35,889 nucleotides of DNA. It comes from a virus. Under the pieces are notes generated by a model. The model had not been told where the DNA came from, ran no database searches, and saw nothing but the letters and a program-made list of their open reading frames with translations. Positions 1,730 through 25,667 of the stretch are shown here, in pieces (within the stretch, counting starts at the first letter, position 1; the number at the start of each line of letters is the position of its first letter). Location: positions 1-35,889 of the IMG/VR virus record IMGVR_UViG_3300032893_000188; one strand, 5' to 3'. Position numbers and translations under genes: made by a program.

Positions 1730-2646
1730 TCGGTTATCCTCCAACTTTCTATATCGTTGCCTCTATATTTATCCAAATCATCAATACCGTAGGCTTCAGC
1801 TAATTTCTTGACATCCACATTTCCCTTCCTAACCGTCATCTGCAATTTCAAATCCCCGATCTTCATTCTGGGATGAGGAGAGTTTTTTATCATAAACAGC
1901 TTTATTTCCGATTTTTCAGATTCTAGTTCATCAATAAGCCTAGACAACTCGGAATAGCGATGGGCTTTCACCAACATTTCCTCATCCGAGATGACAATCC
2001 AATCTTTGTCACTTGCATCTGGAGGGGTTTTATTCTGTATCATTTCTAAAAATTTATGCTCTTCTCTCACCAAAATTTCGCAGTATTTATCATCTCGTTT
2101 CACATTAACCATAACTCCCTCTCCATCGTAATAAGAGAGGTAAAGGATATGATCCGCGTCAACTAAATACATTTGGTGTTGCAATTGAGGCATATAGTAT
2201 TCCGGAACCCTTCCAGCTAACGCATCTCCGTGCGCTTGAATCCCAGCGCATTTTATTTCAAGCAAACATTCATTACCGTGACGATCAATGTAGAATCCAT
2301 CTAAGGAAGCTATAAAGTTTGGGTTAAAGATGCTTTGCACTACCACAGGCTTATAATTGACTCCAAGCCTTTTGTTAATCCAATCCCTAGCTTCCTCTTC
2401 CATGTCATTCCCTCTCTGCATGGCTTTTGTCTTAGGCTTTTTCTTATCAAAGACGACTTCCTCATACAGCTCTAGCTTAGTCTGCCAAGGATTAACTCCC
2501 ATGATTGTCCCAGCTATGCTGGCTGATATTTTCCCTTTTCTAAATTGAAGCCATTTATCGGATCCTTGTATAGACTCTTCACCTTCAATAATACAATACG
2601 GCTTTGCCAAAATGGTCTCATTTGTTACATTGATTTTGTTTTGCAT
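1726..2646 (-). CDS. YqaJ/lambda-exonuclease-type recombination nuclease
   Basis: 306 residues from ATG 2646 (GGAG 7 bases upstream; an upstream TTG at 2652 is unlikely). The PD-(D/E)XK nuclease core of the YqaJ viral recombinase family is visible: 'WLQFRKGKISASIAGTIMG' near residues 32-50, 'RGNDMEEEARDW' near 78-89, 'SLDGF' near 114-118 (metal Asp), 'LEIKCAG' near 129-135 (catalytic E and K), and 'MPQLQHQMYL' near 152-161. Family members resect double-stranded DNA 5' to 3' to leave tails for strand annealing. The SSB-like gene immediately upstream on the same strand is its probable partner, and RusA (4513) could resolve the resulting junctions. The C-terminal ~100 residues form a helical extension typical of phage versions. 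Confidence 0.9.
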   Translation of the reverse strand: MQNKINVTNETILAKPYCIIEGEESIQGSDKWLQFRKGKISASIAGTIMGVNPWQTKLELYEEVVFDKKKPKTKAMQRGNDMEEEARDWINKRLGVNYKPVVVQSIFNPNFIASLDGFYIDRHGNECLLEIKCAGIQAHGDALAGRVPEYYMPQLQHQMYLVDADHILYLSYYDGEGVMVNVKRDDKYCEILVREEHKFLEMIQNKTPPDASDKDWIVISDEEMLVKAHRYSELSRLIDELESEKSEIKLFMIKNSPHPRMKIGDLKLQMTVRKGNVDVKKLAEAYGIDDLDKYRGNDIESWRITE

Positions 2647-2667
2647 TTCCAATCTCCATCCGAAGTT

Positions 2668-2697
2668 CCCCCTCTCTCACCTAAGGGGGTTTTTATT
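2668..2697. repeat. C5T/AG5 hairpin in the leader of the exonuclease gene
   Basis: CCCCCT (2668-2673) and AGGGGG (2684-2689) form a 6-bp stem, followed on the + strand by TTTTTA. Read on + it has the form of a terminator, but no plus gene ends here. Read on - it lies between the SSB-like gene and the exonuclease ribosome site, so it could modulate that junction. A second small stem, CCATC/GATGG, lies near 2740-2753. Confidence 0.5.
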
Positions 2698-2759
2698 TAT
2701 AGAGAAGGTTCCACTATCCTAGTCACCTACAACCCGTGGCCATCTAAGGATGGGTATGG

Positions 2760-3524
2760 CTAAAACGGAACCTCTTCCTCAGCAAGAAGTTGTTCACGCT
2801 TATCATCAATCTTACGCATTACCATTGCATAAAACTTAGCAGGCAAGTAATCGAAAGAAACGATCTTAAACTCTTTAAGAACGCTGTCTCTCCATGAGGG
2901 GTCTACTGGCTTAACATGCACTTCAATGGCGTTATCAATAGCGAAAACCTGTTCTTTACTGATGTTTCCGCCACTTATCGCATTGCTGCTACCCACTGCC
3001 GCTTCACTTTCCCAGAAAGCCTTAGTCCTGCTTTCGTTGGTTGCACTAAATGGATCGGCTCCTGCAAACATTTGCTCCAGATCTATTGGGCGTTCGTAGA
3101 ACGCATCTTTGATCTTCTGGTCGATTGGTTTGTGCGCCAACGGCGTTACGGTATACTCCGTATCCATCTTCTGCCCTCTCTTAACGATCTTTAGATCATA
3201 ACCAAAAGGCTCCCCCCAATCGGAGTCTTTAGATAAGGCAGTTATCATTTTTTGGATAGACGCTTGTACCACTTGATAGATCATGATTTTGTTTTGCCCG
3301 TAATTCCATACTACAAATGCCCAAAAATGCCTTATCGGTCTTGATGGATCAATGGGCTTTTCTGGCTTTGCTTTGTAACGAAACCTTACTGGCTTTTTGT
3401 CTTTCCAATCTTCCCATCCCATAATTGGTTTGGTTAAAATACGTATCTTATTATCACCGGAATCTAGCCTCATGTAAGAGGAATTTCCTGTTGGTGGTTC
3501 GTAGTCATTTTCTAAAAAACTCAT
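2760..3524 (-). CDS. Single-stranded-DNA-binding protein-like (acidic EEEVPF tail)
   Basis: 254 residues from ATG 3524 with a strong AGGAG site. The N-terminal segment 'SGDNKIRIL' followed by Trp-rich strands ('GWEDWKDK', 'FWAFVVWNY') is typical of OB-fold phage ssDNA-binding proteins. The extreme C-terminus, LLAEEEVPF, is the acidic, Pro-Phe-ended tail by which SSBs recruit partner enzymes. It should coat single strands during replication and recombination, and it is cotranscribed with the YqaJ-type exonuclease. A strand-annealing role cannot be excluded. The assignment rests on motif pattern and context rather than full-length similarity. Confidence 0.75.
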   Translation of the reverse strand: MSFLENDYEPPTGNSSYMRLDSGDNKIRILTKPIMGWEDWKDKKPVRFRYKAKPEKPIDPSRPIRHFWAFVVWNYGQNKIMIYQVVQASIQKMITALSKDSDWGEPFGYDLKIVKRGQKMDTEYTVTPLAHKPIDQKIKDAFYERPIDLEQMFAGADPFSATNESRTKAFWESEAAVGSSNAISGGNISKEQVFAIDNAIEVHVKPVDPSWRDSVLKEFKIVSFDYLPAKFYAMVMRKIDDKREQLLAEEEVPF

Positions 3525-3536
3525 AAAGTTCTCCTT

Positions 3537-3695
3537 TTACCAGAATGATCTGGATTTTGTTGGTTCTTGGTTTTGAGCTATTTCTACTTTTATTTGCGAA
3601 TCCATCTCTTTTAGGCGTATTTCTTTGTAGCACATCATTGTGTACATAAGTATTGTAAAGCCCATTGTGTAGATTATAAGTTTTTGGTAGTCCAT
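3537..3695 (-). CDS. Small single-pass membrane protein (52 aa)
   Basis: Start chosen at ATG 3695, with GGAGG eight bases upstream. The upstream in-frame codons would run into the promoter. The protein has one hydrophobic helix near the N-terminus ('IIYTMGFTILMYTMMCY') and a charged tail ending TKSRSFW. It is the first gene of the minus recombination operon and is followed 12 bases later by the SSB-like gene. Function is unknown. It is probably an early inner-membrane protein. Confidence 0.65.
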   Translation of the reverse strand: MDYQKLIIYTMGFTILMYTMMCYKEIRLKEMDSQIKVEIAQNQEPTKSRSFW

Positions 3696-3709
3696 TTTGA
3701 TTTCCTCCA

Positions 3710-13422: not shown

Positions 13423-13945
13423 TGCCACGTAAAAAAAAAGCAATATTTCTCTTTATCCAGATTTAGATCCGAAGACAAGTACAGATCAAAACACTGAAAA
13501 TAAAACACCTCAAGAAAATCCATCTAAAAGACCTAGCCGAAATCCTAGAGGCGTTCCTCCAAAAGTAATAGATTGGGACGCTGTAGGGAATGCTCTTGTG
13601 CAAGGTTGTAATGCTACCCAAATTGCTGCAAGTATGGGGATTTGCGTAGATACATTGTACAACCGATGCCCCGATGAGCATGGGGTAAGCTTTTCAGTTT
13701 TTGCGCAACAAAAAAGAGCGGTTGGAGATGAATTAATTCACAAAAAGCAATTTCAAAGAGCAATTAAAGACGGAAACATACAAATGCTTTTGCACCTCGG
13801 TAAATACAGACTAGGGCAAAAAGATACAGATCTTGAAGATCTAACCAAGAAAAACACATTGGTTCAGGCTTTGCTGGATGAGATTATGAGGATGAAGAAC
13901 CCGAAGGAAGAGGCGCAGGTTGAACAGAAAGATGAGACCACATAG
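13422..13945 (+). CDS. Terminase small subunit candidate, split by a one-base frameshift in an A9 run
   Basis: The ATG at 13422 (MPRKKK) is coupled to the preceding stop. The nine A residues at 13431-13439 are one short of keeping it in frame with the long downstream frame, which is open from about 13433. With one extra A, or -1 slippage, the product would be about 174 residues: a basic/Pro-rich N-terminus ('SKRPSRNPRGVPPKVIDWD'), an HTH ('CNATQIAASMGICVDTLYNR') and a helical oligomerisation part ('QFQRAIKDGNIQMLLHLGKY'). This is the organisation of small terminases that recognise the packaging site. Without the slip, the best start is GTG 13598 (115 aa), which would lose the N-terminus. The 3' end overlaps the opposed HNH gene by 62 bases. 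Confidence 0.7.
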
Positions 13946-14573
13946 AGCCGTTTTTTATTAAATATATGAGCGATTGACTTACTGAAAATTTTTCAGCGAT
14001 TTCTTTTACTCGAACTCCTTTGTGTATCATTTTTTTTATATCCAACACTTTTTTTTCATTTAGTTTGCACCAACTACAATTTATCCCTTTTCTAATTTTG
14101 CTGAGTAATATTTTTTCTCTTTCTATATTTTTCCAAGATCTTTTTTTTAGAATGTTGTAAATTAGACCAGGTGTTACTCCGTATTCTTTTGCCAATGAAG
14201 TTCCTGTTTCTCCTTTCCCGCACCTATAAATTATTTCGATCACATTTTTCTTTGTCAGTTTTGCTGATCCGTGTTTTTCTTCATGAGGATGGCGTGATTT
14301 TAAAACCGAGTCTCTTTTATTTTCCGCAGGAGTTCCAAGGAAAAGATGATCTGGATTTACACACCCGCAATTATCGCATTTATGACAAACACAAATGCCT
14401 TTAGGGATTTCTCCTTTATGAATCAAATAAGAATATCTATGAGATTTTGTGTTTCTTCCACAGATTCCGTAACCATATGAATCTTTACATCCAGTCCATT
14501 CCCAGCATCCAGATTCTGAAACATAATAATGTTTTCTAAAGTTCCTTTCTCGTCTGAGTGAATGGTCAGGCAT
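13884..14573 (-). CDS. HNH homing endonuclease with two HTH repeats
   Basis: 229 residues. The HNH nuclease domain (about 22-88) shows 'CWEWTGCKDSYGYG', 'HRYSYLIHKGEIP', 'CVCHKCDNCGCVNPDHLFLG' (zinc cysteines plus the H-N-H residues) and 'ENKRD'. Two DNA-binding repeats follow: 'LTKKNVIEIIYRCGKGETGT' and 'LNEKKVLDIKKMIHKGVRVK', each ending in an SLIY/GLIY-type recognition helix. The last ~20 residues (SVQPAPLPSGSSSS) lie inside the antisense end of the terminase gene and look like read-through. This indicates insertion at that gene's 3' end. It probably cuts intron- or insert-free copies of the neighbouring packaging region. Confidence 0.9.
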   Translation of the reverse strand: MPDHSLRRERNFRKHYYVSESGCWEWTGCKDSYGYGICGRNTKSHRYSYLIHKGEIPKGICVCHKCDNCGCVNPDHLFLGTPAENKRDSVLKSRHPHEEKHGSAKLTKKNVIEIIYRCGKGETGTSLAKEYGVTPGLIYNILKKRSWKNIEREKILLSKIRKGINCSWCKLNEKKVLDIKKMIHKGVRVKEIAEKFSVSQSLIYLIKNGSMWSHLSVQPAPLPSGSSSS

Positions 14574-17317: not shown

Positions 17318-17321
17318 ATTT

Positions 17322-17435
17322 ATGGTTGTACCGCCTCTCGCCAAGGCAACTAACGATACTAAGGTTAGCGACCAAGGCATATGGGTTTTGCCCCCCAGGT
17401 ATCAAAGAGTAAAGCATCATTGGGTACAACCATGA
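17322..17435 (+). CDS. Possible 37-residue upstream frame of capsid gene
   Basis: ATG 17322 opens MVVPPLAKATNDTKVSDQG and ends at a TGA that overlaps the ATG at 17432 (ATGA), an alternative start of the capsid gene. It has no ribosome site of its own. If translated it would couple to capsid synthesis. More likely it is a chance frame, since a capsid start at 17381 lies inside it. Confidence 0.2.
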   Translation: MVVPPLAKATNDTKVSDQGIWVLPPRYQRVKHHWVQP

Positions 17436-17734
17436 CTACAGCTACTGGTATTACTACCATTGCAAATAATAGTCCTGAGCTACCATTGCAAGCCTCGGAC
17501 TTTTTCCTTTCAACACCACAATTTAACCTGATTCACAGCTTTGGTGCGCAAAAGCACTATGCCAAAGCGTTTATCGGTAAAACTACTCGGCTTAGCCGAT
17601 TTGCGCCTCTTTCATTAGTTGGTGGACAACTTGATGGATCTGGAATAGATCCCGCTCCTGAAGTTCCAGTTAGAACTGATATTGATGCAGATATGGAAAT
17701 ATTTGCTAAATCAATAATTGTAAATGAACAGGTT
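17381..17734 (+). CDS. Major capsid protein, 5' exon (N4-gp56 family)
   Basis: Exon 1 encodes about 118 residues ending 'AKSIIVNEQV'. Start is ATG 17381 (AAGG three bases upstream); ATG 17432 (MTTATGITT) is an alternative. The region 'LIHSFGAQKHYAKAFIGK', 'RFAPLSLVGGQLDGSGIDPA' and the sequence up to 'VNEQV' matches the N4-gp56-type HK97-fold capsid, in which the 'NEQV/DKV' segment is followed without gap by about 17 residues and then L-x-G. Joining base 17734 to base 18531 restores this exact spacing (NEQV-DLWSNRGTLAKYMQLMG). The unspliced frame would run into the intron and stop at 17794. Confidence 0.85.
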
Positions 17735-18530
17735 AGAGGAAAAATTGACCTGTATAAACCCGATATAATTGACTTGGAGTTCCTCGCTGCATAAGCAGAC
17801 GGATAACAAGGCGGAAGCAATTAAGAGAATTTATGATTAGAGTAACCACGAACATGAAGAGCCTTCAGAGTCTCCCACAAATGAATTCGCTTTTTAACGA
17901 TTTCATCGGGAAGTGCTGCGGCTCCTGGTTTACCTTTAACTCCTCTGTAATGGATAGAAAAAGTCTTTCTCATCTCAATGAGAACGGCCGCTTGTTCTTT
18001 CTTTTCGGTAAGGTATGGGTAAATCACTTCAATGATGTGGTCAAGTCTGTATCCAGTTGCTTGCCATTTGTAAGCCATTTTTCTAGAGTTTTTGGGGGTT
18101 TGTTTTTGGGTGTAAGTGGTAATAGAACCACCAAACACGCCAACAATCCATTCAATTATTTTAGGAGTGGTGCTTGTAATGGTAATGTAGGTCTGGAAAT
18201 CCCTTCGTTTGGGATAAGCAATGACAAGAGAGCCTTCGCCATCAACGAGGCCAGCCATATAGGCACATTGTTCAACAGAATATTCTTTTCTAACATAAGC
18301 AACCCATTTTCTTGGTTTAGACATTTTTCACCTAATGTTTACTCTCACGTTAATGATAGCACATATTCAATTAATGGGCACCGTGATCGACTAAATTTTT
18401 GGGATTTTTTTGTACAAGCAAAGAAATATGCGATAGTCAAGCCTCAATAGAAATATTGAGAGGGAAATCCGAAGAGGTTTCCCCGCCCGTATGGGTCAGT
18501 AGGCAATAGACAGCCGAAAGTAATAGAACG
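17735..18530 (+). ncRNA. Group I self-splicing intron in the major capsid gene
   Basis: P1: exon end ACAGGUU pairs with GACCUGU (17746-17752), 7 bp ending in the obligatory U-G at the 5' splice site. P10: AAAUU just before the guide pairs with the first five bases of exon 2 (GAUUU). P7: the R-type motif 'atcGACTAaa' (GACTA 18389-18393) pairs with the S-type motif 'gcgaTAGTCaa' (TAGTC 18434-18438). The intron ends in G (18530). CTGC-ATAA-GCAG in the 5' part and strong hairpins at 18441-18500 are peripheral helices. Splicing yields an in-frame capsid protein of about 338 residues. The endonuclease gene fills the middle on the opposite strand, leaving 86 and 206 bases of ribozyme. Confidence 0.85.
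17821..18324 (-). CDS. LAGLIDADG homing endonuclease, antisense within the intron
   Basis: 167 residues on the strand opposite the capsid gene. One LAGLIDADG helix is present: 'AYMAGLVDGEGSLVIAYP' (about 21-38), followed by 'YITITSTTPKIIEWIVGVFG' and 'WQATGYRLDHIIEVIYPYL'. A single motif means it should act as a homodimer, cutting an intronless capsid gene at or near the exon junction to spread the intron. Ribosome-site sequence upstream (AGGTGAAAAATG on -) is good. The plus-strand frame across this region is a shadow. The antisense orientation keeps the nuclease out of late capsid translation and requires its own promoter. Confidence 0.92.
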   Translation of the reverse strand: MSKPRKWVAYVRKEYSVEQCAYMAGLVDGEGSLVIAYPKRRDFQTYITITSTTPKIIEWIVGVFGGSITTYTQKQTPKNSRKMAYKWQATGYRLDHIIEVIYPYLTEKKEQAAVLIEMRKTFSIHYRGVKGKPGAAALPDEIVKKRIHLWETLKALHVRGYSNHKFS

Positions 18531-19193
18531 GATTTATGGTCTAACCGCGGCACCCTTGCAAAGTACATGCAATTAATGGGGCAATGGATGCGTAACAAGG
18601 AAGATATCCTTATGCGTGACCTTTTTGCCTCTTCCGTATCTTATACAGACGCGGTAGGCGGGGGTAACGGCGATGTTCCCAGTAACCCATCATACGAAGA
18701 CTTCTTGAACAAAGAAGGTGTCCTTAACACAAATGACACCCAAACCGTTCTCGAAAGTGTGATGGCTACTGACCAATTTGGAACATCTCCGCGCATGGAC
18801 TCTTACCTTGGCCTGATCCATACGGATCTTACCGCAGCTATGAACTTGACTGAGAACTTTGTTCTTAAATCAAGCTATCCTGGTCGCGGAGAAAGCGTGA
18901 AGAAAGAGGAATACGGTTCTGTTGGACGTTTCCGCTTCTTCATCTCTTCCAAAGGTCAAGTAATTCCTAACGCATCCGATAAAGGTAACAACGTTTACCC
19001 AATCCCTCTCTACGGCATTGAAGCTATCGGTAAGATTGAGCAAACACGCTACACACACCGTCTTGGCACTCGTCCTGACTGGGTTGTTTCTAACGTAGCT
19101 CAAAACTCTGGCCTATACGCTAAATTTGCTCTAGCTAGATGCGTACAAAACCAAAGCTGGATCACTGGCTTAAACGTAACAGCGCAGGTGTAA
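18531..19193 (+). CDS. Major capsid protein, 3' exon (N4-gp56 family)
   Basis: Exon 2 begins GAT TTA TGG (DLWSNRGTLAKYMQLMG) and supplies about 220 residues. It carries 'KEDILMRDLFASSVSYTDAV', which aligns with the 'TxDxLxRDxLAS' region of N4-gp56 capsids, then the long C-terminal part with 'YGSVGRFRFFISSKGQVIP' and 'YPIPLYGIEAIGKIEQTRY' and the end 'WITGLNVTAQV'. An ATG at 18567 inside the exon is not the start. The next gene starts one base after the stop, so the capsid and decoration-like proteins are cotranslated. Confidence 0.85.
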   Translation, partial: DLWSNRGTLAKYMQLMGQWMRNKEDILMRDLFASSVSYTDAVGGGNGDVPSNPSYEDFLNKEGVLNTNDTQTVLESVMATDQFGTSPRMDSYLGLIHTDLTAAMNLTENFVLKSSYPGRGESVKKEEYGSVGRFRFFISSKGQVIPNASDKGNNVYPIPLYGIEAIGKIEQTRYTHRLGTRPDWVVSNVAQNSGLYAKFALARCVQNQSWITGLNVTAQV

Positions 19194-25166: not shown

Positions 25167-25667
25167 ATGAAAAGCTTTGTAGGTCACCCTAAATACATAG
25201 AATTCATGAAATATAGACTACAGACATTTTCCAGTAAAAATGAAAATGGATGTTGGATTTGGCAAAGAGCAAAACATAGACAGGGGTATGGGTATATCAG
25301 CTTTGAAAAGAAAAATATACTAGCTCACCGTCTATCATGGAAATTATTTAGAGGAGAACTAGACCCTAAAATTCTTGTTTGCCATCGGTGCGACATGCCT
25401 TCTTGTATAAATCCGGACCACCTCTTCTTGGGAACTTACAAAGACAATAATTCAGATGCAAGGATGAAAAAAAGAAATGTTTCTAAACCTCACGCGTATA
25501 AAAGGAAACTTAAATATGAACAAGTTCTCCAGATTATAGAATTATCCAAACAAGGGGTTTCTCGCAAAGAGTTAGAAAAAAAATTTAACGTTGGTCAAAA
25601 CTGTATTTCAAAAATCCTGATAGGGAAATCTTGGCTAATAAATTGGGACAATTTAGGAGGCGTTTAA
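25167..25667 (+). CDS. HNH homing endonuclease between tail genes
   Basis: 166 residues. HNH motif residues are seen in 'CWIWQRAKHRQGYGY' (29-43), 'AHRLSWKLFRGELDP' (53-67), 'VCHRCDMPSCINPDHLFLG' (71-89) and 'KDNNSDARMKKRN'. A helical DNA-binding end follows ('KYEQVLQIIELSKQGVSRKE'). It resembles the nuclease at 13884..14573 but is on the plus strand. It was inserted between two tail genes; its stop overlaps the next ATG (TAATG), so it uses the late transcript. It is not inside an intron here, so it is a free-standing mobile nuclease. Confidence 0.9.
   Translation: MKSFVGHPKYIEFMKYRLQTFSSKNENGCWIWQRAKHRQGYGYISFEKKNILAHRLSWKLFRGELDPKILVCHRCDMPSCINPDHLFLGTYKDNNSDARMKKRNVSKPHAYKRKLKYEQVLQIIELSKQGVSRKELEKKFNVGQNCISKILIGKSWLINWDNLGGV

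Follow-up and report, generated by a model that had tools for sequence, protein, structure and literature searches.

Known group I introns of phages apparently prefer genes of nucleotide and DNA metabolism, a preference that a recent survey termed mysterious (PMC12350094). Capsid genes have also been found interrupted. In mycobacteriophage LittleE the capsid gene contains an intron of about 819 bp that harbours a LAGLIDADG gene in antisense orientation. Splicing of this intron was established by RT-PCR and N-terminal sequencing, and the paper that describes it also refers to an intron in a capsid gene of phage Tuc2009 (PMC3706429). Multi-intron phage genes are likewise known, from Twort and from the DNA polymerase and terminase genes of Bastillevirinae (PMC11878797), and the gp210 intron endonuclease of phage PhiPA3 can act on a co-infecting relative (PMC11620839). 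Since LittleE provides an experimentally spliced precedent, an antisense LAGLIDADG gene within a capsid intron is not new. What is new in the locus described here is the intron family, and not the local arrangement; searches of the open-licence literature turned up no description of an intron family with a preference for capsid genes.

The window, that is, the whole stretch of 35,889 nucleotides analysed from IMG/VR virus record IMGVR_UViG_3300032893_000188, was confirmed at the sequence level to carry a predicted group I intron at positions 17735-18530, within an N4-gp56 major capsid gene. This element is very probably a mobile group I intron, belonging to a wider family with a preference for major head genes. 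The features of the locus are as follows:

17432-17734, plus strand: exon 1 of the major capsid gene (residues 1-101, MTTATG...NEQV), delimited by gap-free intronless relatives, with the start set by protein conservation
17735-18530, plus strand: predicted group I intron of 796 nt, from splice-site inference, family covariation and covariance-model match
17728-17734 (ACAGGUU) with 17748-17754 (GACCUGU), plus strand: P1, its 5' strand being the end of exon 1; from the sequence, P1 covarying in the family
17743-17754, plus strand: putative internal guide, from the sequence; 17743-17747 pairs with exon 2 (P10) and 17748-17754 with exon 1 (P1)
17759-17765 with 18397-18403, plus strand: P3, 5' strand first, with one U-U mismatch
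17773-17810, plus strand: P4 (17773-17776/17807-17810) enclosing P5 (17781-17783/17801-17803), from comparison of the core with the family
17811-18384, plus strand: P6 (17811-17814 and 17817-17818 with 18378-18379 and 18381-18384), the loop of which houses the nuclease gene
17821-18324, minus strand: LAGLIDADG homing endonuclease gene of the I-CreI/I-MsoI type, 167 aa, wholly within the P6 loop
18387-18439, plus strand: P7 (18387 and 18389-18393 with 18434-18438 and 18439), with bulged C18388
18405-18412/18419-18426, plus strand: P8, inside the P7 span, as is the 3' strand of P3 (18397-18403)
18443-18483, plus strand: P9 (18443-18449/18454-18460) and P9.1 (18462-18467/18478-18483), read directly from the sequence
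18519-18530, plus strand: 3' splice region AGTAATAGAACG with terminal G18530, fitting the family motif GTAAYAG...G
18531-19193, plus strand: exon 2 of the major capsid gene (DLWSNRG...TAQV, stop), from the TIGR04387 match of the spliced protein and from relatives

The initial annotation had proposed that the capsid gene is interrupted and resumes 796 bases later, and that splicing restores the gap-free spacing of the N4-gp56 family. Both proposals held. Exon 1 ends in ...GAACAGGUU, the intron runs from AGAGG to ...GAACG, and exon 2 begins with GAUUUAUGG, which gives the predicted spliced junction GAACAGGTT/GATTTATGG. Joining 17734 to 18531 links NEQV to DLWSNRG in frame and without a gap, and intron removal yields an uninterrupted capsid protein of 321 aa. 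The same protein is unbroken in three related loci (L002-L004), with 89% identity and zero gap across the junction, and both exons are conserved with relatives, free of stops and frameshifts. The spliced protein scores 63.6 bits against TIGR04387, above the curated N4-gp56 cut-off of 60, whereas exon 2 alone falls below it (50.3 bits). The start was placed at 17432, correcting an earlier reading, because the sequence further upstream is not conserved as protein. Given that the unspliced capsid frame meets an in-frame stop at 17792-17794, within the P5 loop, it follows logically that capsid yield would depend on splicing. A 91% identical capsid gene occurs on a 5.4-kb contig of a bog Deltaproteobacteria MAG, which is insufficient for naming a host.

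Upstream of the gene, window positions 17321-17431 form a structured 5' leader of the capsid mRNA, whose closing stem (GGUUGUACC/GGUACAACC) stops just before the ATG. Its internal stem covaries, being GATAC/GTATC in the window, GATCCC/GGGATC in L005 and GATTCC/GGAATC in L022. Leaders of the wider family contain one to four tandem pseudoknot-like motifs of the form GGC-UGUA-S2-CUCG-CC-A-S2', in which S2 reached at least 4 bp in 153 of 179 motifs, against 61.5 with shuffled partners; by leader, the figure was 101 of 207, against 1.4% of background. No Rfam match for the leader element was obtained in the loci searched, and it is possibly a new cis-regulatory RNA.

Every core helix (P1, P3-P8, P9 and P10) could be placed in the window intron, with P1, P10, P8 and P9 read straight from the sequence. 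The splice-site pair of P1 is U17734.G17748, P10 joins AAAUU (17743-17747) to GAUUU at the start of exon 2 (18531-18535), and P7 pairs GACUA (18389-18393) with UAGUC (18434-18438), G18389-C18438 being the guanosine-site pair. The 7-bp P1 with U-G at the splice site, the 5-bp P10, the GACTA/TAGTC pairing of P7 and the terminal G had all been claimed previously and were recovered here, together with an outer P7 pair, U18387-A18439, that had been overlooked. All pairs of P4, P5, P6 and P7 and six of the seven of P3 are retained, while P8 is A/U-rich, unlike that of the family. A covariance model built from introns of other phages only matched the window from 17725 onwards (17725-17862, E=6e-4). 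This match is weak (26 bits) and split because the nuclease gene interrupts P6.

The assignment to group I, which had also been proposed before, is upheld by these retained core pairs, by the model match and above all by the relatives of the intron. Capsid and nuclease relatives were fetched and their gaps resolved by script, using U...G ends and the best fit to a capsid profile. A few divergent loci have visibly misplaced sites, and conclusions use sites with a P1 of at least 6 bp and the 3' motif; one family alignment misplaces the P1 columns, and P1 was therefore read directly. Ten capsid-gene introns without an ORF, of about 200 nt each, were aligned, and the alignment backs P1, P3, P4, P5, P6, P7 and P8. 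It contains 37 pairs, including the P3/P7 pseudoknot, which are 96.8% paired and of which 24 display double changes; none of 500 shuffles was as good, and slid partners were paired at less than 50%. In the family, one base of P7 is bulged (C or A), the G-C pair of the guanosine site is invariant, and two further pairs vary. Across 204 distinct core sites the outer variable pair was AU in 153, GC in 38, UA in 7 and CG in 6, and the inner pair AU in 155 and GC in 49, with zero mismatches in either; the search pattern dictated which side of the inner pair is a purine and which a pyrimidine, and left the outer pair wholly unconstrained. The same covariation is displayed by 126 further distinct sequences, in an alignment that was fitted to the model and leans towards it. 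Covariation across relatives places the class, as read from sequence, among the group I introns beyond reasonable doubt.

The Rfam group I search suggested in the initial annotation was run and gave no match for the window or for the ORF-less relatives, at gathering or relaxed thresholds. This result does not refute the intron, because Rfam is blind to the lineage while controls from T4 and LittleE were detected. In one run, RF00028 scored 40.3 bits for T4 td, 35.7 for T4 nrdB and 30.7 for LittleE, all below the gathering score, and left the introns of L195, L206, L384 and L385 undetected. Conversely, the covariance model of the ten ORF-less introns did not detect the T4 introns. The P7.1/P7.2 helices of group IA are absent, P7 being separated from P3 by no more than a few bases (GACUAA, then 18397-18403). 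Judged by these comparisons, the lineage is one of group I introns that the standard model fails to reach, LittleE taking an intermediate position.

The antisense gene in the P6 loop was correctly recognized as a LAGLIDADG nuclease. Its ORF matched phrog_5046 (7.6e-25), which is labelled 'HNH endonuclease' in that library, and a profile of 44 nuclease relatives matched I-MsoI (1.3e-22) and also I-CreI. The AlphaFold model (pLDDT 90) has LAGLIDADG topology with best Foldseek matches to I-CreI; model and PDB matches display the LAGLIDADG helix with its acidic residue and an alpha-beta-beta-alpha-beta-beta-alpha fold. The helix motif reads AYMAGLVDGEG, with D28 and E30 invariant in the 44 relatives. 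Against Pfam LAGLIDADG_1, the window nuclease scored 19.2 bits (cut-off 23.1), and 23 of the 44 relatives reached E<=0.001. Among the 80 best nuclease relatives, 76 adjoin N4-gp56-like capsid exons, every one of them antisense. A wider set contained 85 antisense, 5 same-strand and 16 without a capsid gene nearby, counts that come from related sequences and do not amount to 85 independent events. The initial annotation stated that this gene must have its own promoter; that inference is plausible, but a scan for sigma-70 promoters detected none upstream of the nuclease and gave no more than shuffled sequences did. Targets of homodimeric nucleases often have dyad symmetry, and none above background was found at the junction.

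On the sense strand, an open frame of 205 aa (window 17833-18450, plus strand) mirrors the nuclease gene, has no family match and is probably a shadow ORF. The window also encodes free-standing HNH_3 endonucleases at 13884-14573 (minus strand) and 25167-25667 (plus strand); together with the intron nuclease, these give the genome at least three homing-type nucleases.

Relatives at or near the same site differ in what they carry. L022 has an ORF-less intron of 223 nt at the identical insertion nucleotide, and L025 an intron one base off the window site with an antisense nuclease 39% identical. The window and L022 agree in 20 of 20 bases right after the junction and 9 of 10 right before it, and in about 60% further out, a pattern that fits a nuclease or guide footprint, or co-conversion. 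At other codons, the capsid gene of L063 (1935-4109, capsid-sense orientation) consists of five exons and four introns. In each intron P1 measures 6-7 bp, with a U.G pair at the splice site, and the 3' end is of the conserved GTAACA...G form; removal of all four restores one capsid protein. The capsid gene of L206 contains at least four interruptions.

To examine the spread of the family over host genes, we used a gene-blind scan of viral contigs with a core pattern, which returned at least 120 loci at no fewer than 116 distinct sites; the pattern was derived from capsid introns, and many sites are related by descent. Among the matches listed (116 sites), 58 were in or beside N4-gp56 capsid genes. 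A further 53 flanking exons in these listed matches could be annotated, including 22 P22-type major head, 7 phrog_9953, 4 phrog_267 and 1 phrog_247 head proteins; genes for portal proteins (4), tape measure proteins (3) and ribonucleotide reductase (one or two) were also among them. Major head genes therefore host at least 92 of the 116 listed sites (about 79%), if the head-protein sets do not overlap. Across the entire length of 12 viral records (about 300 kb), chosen for their capsid genes, the model gave 30 matches, 29 of which fell in the capsid region; this within-genome comparison escapes some of the bias of the pattern scan. Capsid genes are interrupted at many different codons, and in the nearest clade 4 of 73 complete genes were interrupted, a sample taken with an N-terminal query anchored upstream of most sites. 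Such sporadic occurrence is what mobile elements would show. Searches ranked by capsid similarity were set aside for estimating prevalence, as the ranking favours uninterrupted genes. Together, these sequence data point to the window intron as a member of a wider, previously unclassified family favouring major head genes of several families.

Some members deserve separate mention. L027 (1348-2469) has a capsid intron at a different codon, with two adjacent antisense LAGLIDADG-like ORFs inside. In L385 (MW202674.1), the P22-type coat gene at 2192-3707 has been annotated as a pair of coat proteins flanking an unrecognised family intron. The cultured Roseobacter phage CRP-118 (L384, OR420741.1) carries a family intron at 2470-2614 (107.5 bits) that splits a ribonucleotide reductase gene, which is annotated as two genes. 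Across 38 introns, the first in-frame stop lies mostly 50-80 nt in, and in 95% within 90 nt; it falls within the initial 30 nt in 13% of them, against 49% in the other frames. An early in-frame stop may keep ribosomes off the P6-P7 core, although conserved core motifs could explain the stop position instead.

The mechanism that we propose follows group I chemistry. The late capsid pre-mRNA would fold, P1 and P10 holding its exons; exogenous guanosine, docked at the G-C pair of P7, would attack after U17734, and the freed exon 1 would attack after G18530, joining NEQV to DLWSNRG. By analogy with its family, the antisense nuclease would dimerise and cut, close to the junction, the intronless capsid alleles of co-infecting relatives, upon which double-strand-break repair would copy the intron into the cut allele. 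As the nuclease gene is on the opposite strand, the capsid pre-mRNA is not the template of nuclease-making ribosomes, which thus cannot unfold the ribozyme; this may be the reason for the antisense arrangement.

The U-U mismatch in P3 and the A/U-rich P8 could be taken as signs of decay, in which case the ribozyme or the nuclease would have degenerated and the capsid gene would be split and non-functional, or rescued by a host splicing factor. Such decay seems very unlikely to us, as the catalytic helices and guanosine site are all intact, the unbroken nuclease ORF is confidently modelled with a LAGLIDADG fold, and conservation extends over both exons. The annotators of MW202674.1, who named the halves of a split coat gene as two proteins, provide a model for reading the present locus as two capsid genes or as a frameshift or assembly artefact, the insert being no more than a nuclease gene that has landed in capsid coding sequence. 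We give this reading hardly any credence, given the exact restoration of the junction, the U...G ends with P1 and P10 and the family-wide covariation; the existence of an ORF-less intron at the same site further indicates that the insert is more than a nuclease gene. Group II introns and inteins both occur in phage genes, and LAGLIDADG genes are found in both, but the probability of either here is close to nil: an intein is excluded by the in-frame stop at 17792-17794 and by the opposite orientation of the nuclease gene, and a group II intron by the P3-P8 group I core, the terminal G and the U.G pair of P1.

The mobile group I intron that we favour has implications beyond this phage. The head-gene preference of its family breaks the known pattern of nucleotide and DNA-metabolism genes, and the family evades the standard RNA library, which leaves its members unannotated, as in the split coat gene deposited as two proteins. 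It can put four ribozymes into one late gene, and, if splicing is complete as in LittleE, the most abundant protein of the phage depends on very efficient ribozymes. We also entertain, as a speculative and rather doubtful extension, that this is a capsid-specialised lineage in which antisense I-CreI-type nucleases would cut the capsid gene of co-infecting relatives as a competition weapon, successive invasions having led to up to five exons. The ORF-less members of 200 nt suit direct splicing tests.

Set against known systems, the window shares with T4 td and nrdB (group IA, RF00028) the group I core and chemistry and a homing endonuclease in a peripheral loop, but lacks the P7.1/P7.2 insertion between P7 and P3. 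The T4 introns interrupt genes of nucleotide metabolism and carry their nucleases in sense orientation, whereas the window has a capsid gene and an antisense nuclease. Its nuclease resembles I-MsoI and I-CreI in being a single-motif protein of about 165 aa with the same fold; it differs in its identity to solved structures (about 17%) and in its target, predicted to be a phage capsid gene rather than chloroplast 23S rDNA. Like PhiPA3 gp210 (PMC11620839), it is an intron nuclease in a phage gene, but the host gene and phage group are others. The product passes the cut-off of the N4-gp56 family (TIGR04387) and yet its gene is interrupted, members elsewhere having up to four introns. LittleE (JF937101) is like the window in its major capsid host gene, an exon 1 ending in U, an intron ending in G and an antisense LAGLIDADG gene; it is matched by the model of the ten ORF-less introns (E=0.0025) and has the GTAACA-type 3' end in common. 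Unlike the window, LittleE has a capsid of the HK97/Omega type and a nuclease located 3' of P7 rather than in P6, only remotely related to the window's (26% identity over 90 residues), and its intron is detected by RF00028, unlike the tested members of the family described here.
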